The notes below the pieces were generated by a model that had not been told where the DNA came from, made no database searches, and saw only the letters and a program-made list of their open reading frames with translations. The position numbers were made by a program, and so were the translations under genes. This document shows, in pieces, positions 41,401-47,416 of a stretch of DNA of 51,500 nt. This DNA comes from an uncultured Clostridia bacterium (lineage in GTDB: Bacteria > Bacillota > Clostridia > Oscillospirales > Oscillospiraceae): positions 1-51,500 of the forward strand of contig CAMVKI010000002.1 of the NCBI GenBank assembly GCA_947168005.1. Reading direction: 5' to 3'. How positions within the stretch are numbered: position 1 is the stretch's first letter; each line of letters starts with the position of its first letter.

Positions 41401-42288
41401 GTGATTTACGTGAAAAAAAGGAAAATTCTTCGGACCTTGGGCATTCTTCTGATCGTCCTGCTGGTCCTGATCGGAGTCGAGCTGCTGATCTCCAATTACT
41501 CAATTTCCGTCAGCCGCTACGCCCTTTCCTCGGAGAAGCTTAGCGCGCCGGTCCGGATCGTCTTCCTCTCCGACCTCCACGGCAGGGAGTTCGGGAAGGA
41601 CAACGCCAGGCTGCTGAACAAGATCTCGGAGCAGGAGCCGGACCTGATCGCCCTGGTGGGCGACATCTTCAACGAGAACGCCGAGGCGGCGGAGATCGAC
41701 GCCATGTGCGGCTTTATCCGGGCCTGCACGGAAATCGCTCCGTGCTATTTCGGCCTGGGCAACCATGAGACGAGCTATCTGGAAACCGACGCCGCCGGGC
41801 TTCTGGACCGGATTCGGGAGGCCGGGGCGGTCGTGGTGAACGACGAGTTTCAGGATATCAGCGTCAACGGCAATCCGATTCGCCTGGGCGGGTACATGGG
41901 CTATTATCCCTATCCCCATATGATGACCAAGGACCCGGAGCTGATTCAAAAGGAAAAAGACTTTTTCGGGGCCTTCAAGCGCACGGAGCGCTTCAAGCTC
42001 CTGCTCAACCACATCCCCACCGGCTGGCTGGATTGGCATTATATCGACAAGGACTCCATTGATCTGGTCCTCTCGGGCCACTACCACGGCGGCGTGGTCC
42101 GCATTCCCATCTTAGAGCAGGGCCTCTTCGCCCCCTACATCGGCAAATTCCCGCCCTATACCAAGGGCATGTTCGTGGGCGAGAAGGCGACCTGTATCCT
42201 GAGCACCGGCCTGGCGGGCAGCTACGGCCTGCCCCGCTTCTTCAACCCGCCGGAGCTCTGCGTCGTGGACCTGACGCCGGCCTCCTGA
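41401..42288 (+). CDS. Membrane-anchored metallophosphoesterase
   Basis: IVFLSDLHGREFG, LVGDIFNE, GLGNHE, LLLNHIP, LVLSGHYHGG. GTG start. Confidence 0.92.
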   Translation: MIYVKKRKILRTLGILLIVLLVLIGVELLISNYSISVSRYALSSEKLSAPVRIVFLSDLHGREFGKDNARLLNKISEQEPDLIALVGDIFNENAEAAEIDAMCGFIRACTEIAPCYFGLGNHETSYLETDAAGLLDRIREAGAVVVNDEFQDISVNGNPIRLGGYMGYYPYPHMMTKDPELIQKEKDFFGAFKRTERFKLLLNHIPTGWLDWHYIDKDSIDLVLSGHYHGGVVRIPILEQGLFAPYIGKFPPYTKGMFVGEKATCILSTGLAGSYGLPRFFNPPELCVVDLTPAS

Positions 42289-44835: not shown

Positions 44836-45849
44836 ATGCTGCTTTTGCTCCATGCCGCCGCCCATCTGCTGGTGGACGCGGTCTGCGCCGCGGCCCTCTT
44901 CGGCCCCCTCAAGGGCGGGGCCGACGCCGCCTGGCGCTTCATGCTCTACAATACCCTGGCCTTCTCCACCCAATGCCTGGTGGGCCTGGCCGCGGACCGG
45001 ATCGGGAAGCACCGGATCTCCGCGGCGGCGGCCATGCTCTGCGTAGCCGCGGGCTTCGCCCTGCCCCTCCCGGTCCTTCTGCGTCTGCTGCTGATCGGCC
45101 TGGGGAACAGCGTCTTCCACGTGGCCGCCGGGACGGAGACCATCGAGGGCAGCGGGGGAAAGGCCGCGCCTCTGGGGGTCTTCGTGGCTCCCGGCGCCAT
45201 CGGCGTCACGGTGGGAAGCCTGTTTCCCGCCGCCGGGCCCTTCCTGGCGGGAGCGCTGGCCGTGCTCGGCGCCGCGTCCCTATTTGTCAAGGGAAGGCCG
45301 GAGCCCCGGACCGAGGGCCCGGGCCGCGCAGAACCGGAGAAGACAGTCCGAAGGCCCCTGCTGGCGGCGGTCCTGCTGACGGCGGCCGTGGGCGTGCGGG
45401 CCGTCGGCGGCGCGGCGGTCAGCTTCCCCTGGCAGACCGGCCCCGCGCTGATTCTGGTCACCACGGGCTTCGTCTTCGCGGGGAAGACCGCCGGCGGCTT
45501 CCTCTGCGACCGCCTCGGCCCGAGCCGCTCCGCCTGGGCCTCGGTGCCCGCGGCGGCGCTGCTCATCAGCTTCTGCGGGGCCTGGATGCTTCCGGCCCTG
45601 CTGGGGCAGTTTGCCCTGAATCTGACCATGCCCATCACCCTCTGGCTCCTCTGCCGGGCTCTGCCTGAGTCCCCGGCCTTCGCCTTCGGCCTGGCCGCCT
45701 CGGCCCTCTGGCCCGGGACCCTGGCCGGGAAATACATCCAGCTGACCGGCCCGGCCCGCTGGGCCCTGCTCCTGGCCTGCTTCCTCTTCGGCCTTTTCGC
45801 CATTTTGTACGCCGTCCCAAAGAGGAGGGAGCTCCGACAGGAGCGCTGA
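44836..45849 (+). CDS. MFS-like membrane transporter
   Basis: About 10 hydrophobic helices; GLAADRIGKHRISAAAAM and AGKTAGGFLCDRLGPSR (MFS loop motif). Confidence 0.75.
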   Translation: MLLLLHAAAHLLVDAVCAAALFGPLKGGADAAWRFMLYNTLAFSTQCLVGLAADRIGKHRISAAAAMLCVAAGFALPLPVLLRLLLIGLGNSVFHVAAGTETIEGSGGKAAPLGVFVAPGAIGVTVGSLFPAAGPFLAGALAVLGAASLFVKGRPEPRTEGPGRAEPEKTVRRPLLAAVLLTAAVGVRAVGGAAVSFPWQTGPALILVTTGFVFAGKTAGGFLCDRLGPSRSAWASVPAAALLISFCGAWMLPALLGQFALNLTMPITLWLLCRALPESPAFAFGLAASALWPGTLAGKYIQLTGPARWALLLACFLFGLFAILYAVPKRRELRQER

Positions 45850-45865
45850 GAATGAATCGAAAAAA

Positions 45866-45881
45866 TGTTTCACGTGAAACA
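45866..45881. promoter_or_regulatory. parS: parS, ParB/Spo0J-binding site
   Basis: Exact 16-bp palindrome TGTTTCACGTGAAACA in the intergenic gap between 45849 and 45908, identical to the B. subtilis parS consensus. Confidence 0.95.
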
Positions 45882-45907
45882 ATTGTTTGAGACGAAAGGA
45901 GAACGCC

Positions 45908-46087
45908 ATGAAAAAACTGCTCTGTCTGCTGTTGACGCTGCTCTGCTGCGCCGCCCTGGCGACGACGGTCTATGCCGATCTTGCCGTCAGCCCCTTTGAA
46001 AGCCCGTCCTTCTGGGTGCTGATCGTCGCCGTCCTGCCTGTTCTGGCCTTCCTGATCTATCTGTTTGTACATAAACCGAAAAAGTGA
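45908..46087 (+). CDS. Small exported/membrane protein (59 aa)
   Basis: MKKLLCLLLTLLCCAALATTVYADLAVSPFESPSFWVLIVAVLPVLAFLIYLFVHKPKK: signal peptide plus one C-terminal TM helix; AAAGGAGAA SD. Confidence 0.8.
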   Translation: MKKLLCLLLTLLCCAALATTVYADLAVSPFESPSFWVLIVAVLPVLAFLIYLFVHKPKK

Positions 46088-46114
46088 CGAACGAACGTCG
46101 AAAGGAGAAACGAC

Positions 46115-46429
46115 ATGAAAAAACTGATTTGCCTGCTGCTGGCCCTGCTCTGCCTCGCCGCCCTGACGACGACGGCCTTCGCCGATCTCATCTTCCCGCC
46201 CGAGGAAGGGACGGGAGAAAGCTATGAATTTACGGCGGATTCGACCTCGCCCACCCTCTCCGCCGAGGATCTGGCGGCGGCCCGGAGCGAGACCGTCCCG
46301 GCCACGGAGGCGCCCGCCGGTCCCGTTTCCGGCGGAGGCAGCTATCTGTTCCTCTATCTCGGCATCGGTGCGGCCGCCGTGGCTGCGGCCCTGGCCCTCT
46401 TCTTCCTGCTGCGGAAGAAGGCCAAATGA
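46115..46429 (+). CDS. Small exported/membrane protein (104 aa), paralog of the previous gene in its signal peptide
   Basis: MKKLICLLLALLCLAALTTTAFADLIFPPEEG...YLFLYLGIGAAAVAAALALFFLLRKKAK; AAAGGAGAA SD. Confidence 0.8.
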   Translation: MKKLICLLLALLCLAALTTTAFADLIFPPEEGTGESYEFTADSTSPTLSAEDLAAARSETVPATEAPAGPVSGGGSYLFLYLGIGAAAVAAALALFFLLRKKAK

Positions 46430-46774: not shown

Positions 46775-47416
46775 ATGGAAGAAACAATCCTGCAATACCT
46801 CCGGGACAAATACCGCCCCCTGGCGGTCATCATCTACGGCTCCTACGCCGACGGCACCAACGGGCCGGGCAGCGACTTTGACGCCCTGCTCATCGCCGTC
46901 GGGGAGAAGCGCCACGACGACACCGCCTTCGAGGGCGTGCCCCTGGACGTCTTCGTGGAGCCCCCCGAGAGCTTCCAGAAGGACTGGGACCCGGCGGACT
47001 ACCTCCGGCTCCTGGGCGGGCGGATCGCGGAGGACCGGGGCGGCCTGGCCGCCGGGGTCCTGGAGCGGGTCCGGGCCTGGGCGGCCCAGCTGCCCCGGAA
47101 GACCCGCTCCGAGCTCCGGGAGGAGCTGAGCTGGTGCCGGAAGATGCTGGAGCGGACCCGCCGCGGCGACGACGAGGGCCTCTACCGCTGGCACTGGCTG
47201 CTCACCGACAGCCTGGAGATCTTCTGCGATCTCGTGGGGGAGCCCTGGCTGGGGCCCAAGAAGGCCCTGCGCCGTATGGAGGCCTCCTACGGCCTGGCGA
47301 AGCGCGCCTACGGCCGGGCCCTCCGGGAGATGAACCCCGCGGCCCTGCGAGACTGGATCTCCTACCTGGAAAAGCTGGCGGAGATCGAAAGCCCCTGGGA
47401 TAACAAAAACAGTTAA
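46775..47416 (+). CDS. Nucleotidyltransferase-domain protein with HEPN-like C-terminal helices
   Basis: LAVIIYGSYADGTNGPGSDFDALLI (GSxxDG...SDxD) and a helical C-terminal half. Confidence 0.8.
   Translation: MEETILQYLRDKYRPLAVIIYGSYADGTNGPGSDFDALLIAVGEKRHDDTAFEGVPLDVFVEPPESFQKDWDPADYLRLLGGRIAEDRGGLAAGVLERVRAWAAQLPRKTRSELREELSWCRKMLERTRRGDDEGLYRWHWLLTDSLEIFCDLVGEPWLGPKKALRRMEASYGLAKRAYGRALREMNPAALRDWISYLEKLAEIESPWDNKNS

Follow-up and report, generated by a model that had tools for sequence, protein, structure and literature searches.

Does a perfect match to parS tell us that a locus lies near the replication origin? To our knowledge parS lies almost exclusively near the origin. A first-pass annotation of the DNA analysed here (the window, a stretch of 51,500 nucleotides that forms an entire contig of the genome under study, G000) took a single such match to suggest that its locus is close to oriC. 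We find that the palindrome is one of an unusual set of sites, probably gained recently, and does not by itself mark the replication origin.

The palindrome and its setting

The site lies between two genes on the same strand, with the following features:

44836-45849, + strand: upstream gene for a 337-aa hydrophobic, transporter-like protein (orthologue in a congener)
45858-45888, no strand: AT-rich flanks of the palindrome, ...GAAAAAA on the left and ATTGTTT on the right
45866-45881, no strand: parS-type palindrome TGTTTCACGTGAAACA, which the genome holds in 15 exact copies
45908-46087, + strand: downstream small-protein gene, 59 aa with a signal-like N-terminus (orthologue in a congener)

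A scan of the window finds TGTTTCACGTGAAACA, a perfect 16-bp palindrome, once; the runner-up (at 41402) carries 3 mismatches, and shuffled sequence gives 0.11 matches at ≤3 mismatches, placing the palindrome beyond chance. It agrees exactly with the 16-bp consensus of B. subtilis parS, TGTTNCACGTGAAACA, and stands between the stop codon of the upstream gene, 16 bp away, and the downstream ATG at 45908, 26 bp away; its description in the first-pass annotation as an exact, intergenic parS palindrome of the B. subtilis type is borne out. A Pfam search with the 337-aa upstream protein returned no match. In the congener G016, orthologues of both flanking genes occur in the same order, and the palindrome is absent between them. 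Downstream, two tandem genes for small secreted-type proteins (45902-46188) share 84% identity across their first 80 nt, and a nucleotidyltransferase-domain gene (46775-47416) lies 3' of the pair. The annotation also proposed that ParB spreading could influence the nearby small-protein genes.

Copies across the genome

The G000 assembly comprises 2.58 Mb in 297 contigs, at 84% completeness and 2.6% contamination. The annotation had seen no second copy of the palindrome, which holds for the window but fails for the genome: this 84%-complete assembly contains at least 15 exact copies of TGTTTCACGTGAAACA, each on its own contig, where a dinucleotide model trained on the sequences examined predicts about 1e-4 genome-wide and a reversed-pattern control gives 0 matches. 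Allowing ≤2 mismatches raises the number of sites to 21. Five of these carry one mismatch, and three of the five adjoin parA; outside the parA array there are just two one-mismatch sites and one two-mismatch site. The commonest one-mismatch variant, TGTTCCACGTGAAACA, occurs three times at parA and once elsewhere, the three parA copies forming a near-tandem series upstream of parA-parB, spaced 124 and 117 bp apart (contig C199; L036:323-579). Congeners read at the parA locus have TGTTTCACGTGAAACA where G000 has TGTTCCACGTGAAACA.

All but one of the 15 exact copies are intergenic, many of them no more than 65 bp past the end of a gene, and the neighbouring genes are tandem, convergent or divergent, with no shared orientation. 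The single coding copy (L032) lies in a gene for a radical-SAM activating-enzyme-like protein.

Around the core, 20 G000 sites provide 40 half-sites, in which T occupies outward position 2 in 39 and outward position 1 in 35; a weaker preference extends to position 6, and beyond ~6 bp the flanks are near-random. Five copies (L025, L026, L027, L028 and L029) share a one-sided flank of ~16-25 bp (GTTAAACAAA / TTCTGTATAATTGTATA), whereas most do not. A core that is exact in 15 copies within diverged flanks speaks for selection acting on the 16-mer and is the pattern expected of a sequence kept for protein binding. The variant TGTTCCACGTGAAACA is likewise informative: it stays within the consensus but its TGTTCC change would break a base pair of an RNA hairpin, and it therefore fits recognition of DNA.

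Among the sequences examined, a flank close to TTCTGTATAATTGTATA occurs solely beside parS. A separate intergenic repeat, GAATAATGAATAGTGAATAATTGTGGTATTTTTCAATTCTGCGAATTGAAAAATG, lies beside parS at L028:1871-1956 and L034:2049-2130, and is also found on the dnaA contig at L039:330-402 without parS. A long mobile element was considered and set aside, as the 125 bp of similarity that L028 and L034 share belong to an intergenic repeat which is found near dnaA without parS as well.

Absence from congeners and chromosomal position

All 22 congeners (22/22) have 0-2 exact copies each and only 1-3 sites when two mismatches are allowed, and these sites adjoin parA-parB wherever the parAB contig was read. 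Nine G000 site neighbourhoods, that of the window included, were aligned with 1-3 congeners, several of the intergenic stretches aligning poorly, and the palindrome appeared in none of the aligned congener stretches. Given this absence, the sites are most simply read as gains in the G000 lineage. In the L032 coding copy, the palindrome takes the place of the congener sequence with no indel and no change of length, and was therefore made by substitution or replacement, not by simple insertion.

To place the sites, relatives were searched with concatenated fragments of the flanking proteins (gene names are our reading of the proteins). In G020, the best-assembled congener (60 contigs), flanking-gene orthologues fall on ~8 contigs, and none of those detected is on the 128-kb contig that bears dnaA, parAB and the parS sites. 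In G267, a complete genome of the same family (one contig, ~2.2 Mb), sigG lies ~0.69, rsgA ~0.96, comEC ~1.06 and ribF ~0.21 Mb from dnaA; in G031, a complete 3.0-Mb genome of the same order, the distances are ~1.25 (sigG), ~1.38 (sbcD), ~0.77 (comEC) and ~0.75 Mb (rsgA), with a weak ribF match ~0.02 Mb away. Gene order is partly conserved among these relatives, and the mapping speaks to the whole set, not to single sites; on that scale it indicates a parS set that is probably dispersed over the chromosome. The right-end gene of the window, ahcY, is 67 kb from dnaA in G267, but in G020 and G018 it falls on contigs other than that of the origin, gene order not being conserved across the family; the window itself may thus lie near oriC or far from it. 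A link of the window to G018 through sigG was dropped, the match there being probably a paralogue.

Since the 15 exact copies each occupy a different contig, and the orthologues of their neighbours are spread and far from dnaA in relatives, the palindrome has no support as an origin marker. The annotation had itself named many scattered copies as the pattern that would count against an origin-proximal locus, and scattered copies are what the genome contains; we reject origin proximity deduced from the single site.

Segregation proteins

G000 encodes ParA and ParB on C199, DnaA, and SMC as an intact frame of ~1199 aa. Its ParB (L036:1509-2393) is 67-83% identical to congener ParB proteins and retains G170, K171, R173, N178, G201 and R204, residues whose roles are taken from PMC7383237; that paper reports R173 and G201 to be invariant among ParB orthologues. 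The ParB/Spo0J that the annotation had expected is accordingly present, beside ParA and with the R173/G201 contact residues of a cognate parS-type ParB, apart from one change: position 172, which contacts parS and is conserved in ParB and Noc (PMC7383237), is proline in G000 and serine in all 12 congeners read. The recognition helix reads GKPRPTIAN in G000 vs GK/RSRxAVAN in congeners, and S172P may have shifted the specificity of the G000 protein.

A Noc-like ParB paralogue, common to most congeners, is encoded beside dapA-dapB on C42 (L038:11592-12464), with P173, K179, K184 and R201; position 173, where it has proline, is a specificity position. The classical Noc site, ATTTCCCGGGAAAT, has 0 copies in the G000 genome.

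A second genome with many copies

A search of 297 genomes of the order for AATGTTTCACGTGAAACATT gave 16 matches in G273, 9 in G000, 5 in one further genome and 0-2 in the rest. G273, a 1.2-Mb partial genome from another family (L253-L264), has 35 exact 16-mers vs 1 in each of two congeners, laid out as a tandem array upstream of parB plus dispersed copies, many of them within a repeat that ends in TTTTGGGGGTGCGACATTTNGCGACATCGG. The dispersed repeat of G273 holds two GCGACAT boxes.

Interpretation

We consider it probable that TGTTTCACGTGAAACA is a ParB-binding parS, one of a species-specific set of at least 15 dispersed sites that would have been gained recently, with the three-copy TGTTCCACGTGAAACA array kept at parA-parB. 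This reading draws on observed copy number, exactness, intergenic placement, absence from congeners and presence of ParA, ParB and SMC, and on a dispersal over the chromosome that is deduced from relatives; the same derivation of site positions, together with the fragmented, 84%-complete assembly, weighs against it. We infer ParB occupancy, SMC loading and a selective reason for the sites. Most likely, ParB-CTP clamps would load at each dispersed site, slide along nearby DNA and either bring in SMC or form bridges with other ParB complexes, so that ParB would act at many chromosomal positions and not at the origin alone.

The copies could also owe their number to a short repeat carrying the parS core that spread through intergenic DNA, in which case they might bind ParB with no selected role. 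Spread by repeats is a demonstrated layout in G273, in which a clear dispersed repeat (AAAA-parS-TTTTGGGGGTGCGACATTTNGCGACATCGG) holds many of the 35 exact copies. It is a live alternative in G000, where five copies share flank beyond the core and short-repeat spread may therefore explain some of them. Most G000 copies, however, have little in common outside the core except a few A/T positions; a decaying repeat should leave many near-misses, of which only the three named above lie outside the parA array; and the L032 copy arose without an indel. As an account of the whole set we judge it unlikely. Pooling of contigs from several organisms would suit an assembly of this fragmentation and estimated contamination, but at least 8 site-bearing contigs have flanking-gene orthologues at 60-92% identity in congeners and no congener carries many copies, making a binning artefact highly improbable.

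Two further readings assign the palindromes to something other than ParB. As operators of another DNA-binding protein, such as the C42 paralogue, they would make up a Noc-like nucleoid-occlusion set; the dispersed, intergenic layout resembles that of Noc sites, and the genome, which lacks the classical site, encodes the Noc-like protein, with its K179, K184 and R201. Most congeners nevertheless have the same protein and none has dispersed sites, R201 prefers the C that the Noc site has at position 6 (PMC7383237) to the A of these palindromes, and their sequence differs from the ATTTCCCGGGAAAT core. We regard this reading as very unlikely and reject a Noc set, the gene being common to site-less congeners and the Noc site missing. 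That the copies are intergenic transcription terminators or RNA hairpins is scarcely credible: many do lie shortly past a gene end, their flanks are T-rich on both strands, and the hairpin folds, but its 6-bp stem is A/T-rich, unlike the stable G+C-rich stem and following U tract of an intrinsic terminator, the window copy has no folding advantage over shuffled sequence (z -0.31), although some other copies do, loop and stem are without compensatory variation, TGTTCC breaks a pair, and copies also occur upstream of divergent genes. The weak fold and the absence of compensatory change led us to reject it.

Returning to a dispersed ParB-binding set, a stronger version is tentative and on balance doubtful: that the centromere sequence was multiplied and kept by selection both here and, as a separate event, in a distantly related genome of the order, with ParB (its recognition helix changed in G000) serving as a genome-wide SMC loader or nucleoid organiser and not as an origin marker.

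Comparison with known systems

In most bacteria parS sites are few and clustered, scattered sets being restricted to few lineages in the account that PMC8357415 gives, citing Livny 2007. A genome-wide set is unexpected because extra, origin-distant parS sites make SMC complexes collide in B. subtilis (PMC8357415) and harm Caulobacter, which tolerates a second cluster best when it lies in the ~500 kb around the origin (PMC5815017). A limited search of the literature found no species-specific genome-wide expansion of parS. With one of its species having moved from ~2 to at least 15 dispersed sites, the genus would serve as a natural experiment in the usual confinement of parS, the tolerance of SMC collisions and the spread of centromere sequences. 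The G000 palindrome is more interesting as part of a dispersed, lineage-specific set than as a lone origin mark, and a single parS match cannot serve to call a locus origin-proximal.

G000 resembles the Spo0J/ParB system of B. subtilis in its consensus (TGTTNCACGTGAAACA), in the presence of ParA, ParB and SMC, and in having several sites; it differs in that B. subtilis has eight sites over ~0.75 Mb (PMC8357415), whereas G000 has at least 15 exact sites, whose neighbours have orthologues across most of the chromosome of relatives, and belongs to a genus with ~2 sites as the usual number. Bacillus Noc-binding sites, too, are palindromes dispersed in the genome and recognised by a protein of the ParB family, but the G000 sequence is parS and not ATTTCCCGGGAAAT. 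Myxococcus xanthus likewise has a high number (22 parS sites), listed as 22/22 in a review table (PMC7022226), which we take to mean that all are origin-proximal, unlike those of G000. Genome-wide ParB targets are also known from P. aeruginosa, where half-parS sites are proposed to shape chromosome topology (PMC7022226); these are hundreds of 7-bp half sites, in contrast to the full 16-bp palindromes of G000.
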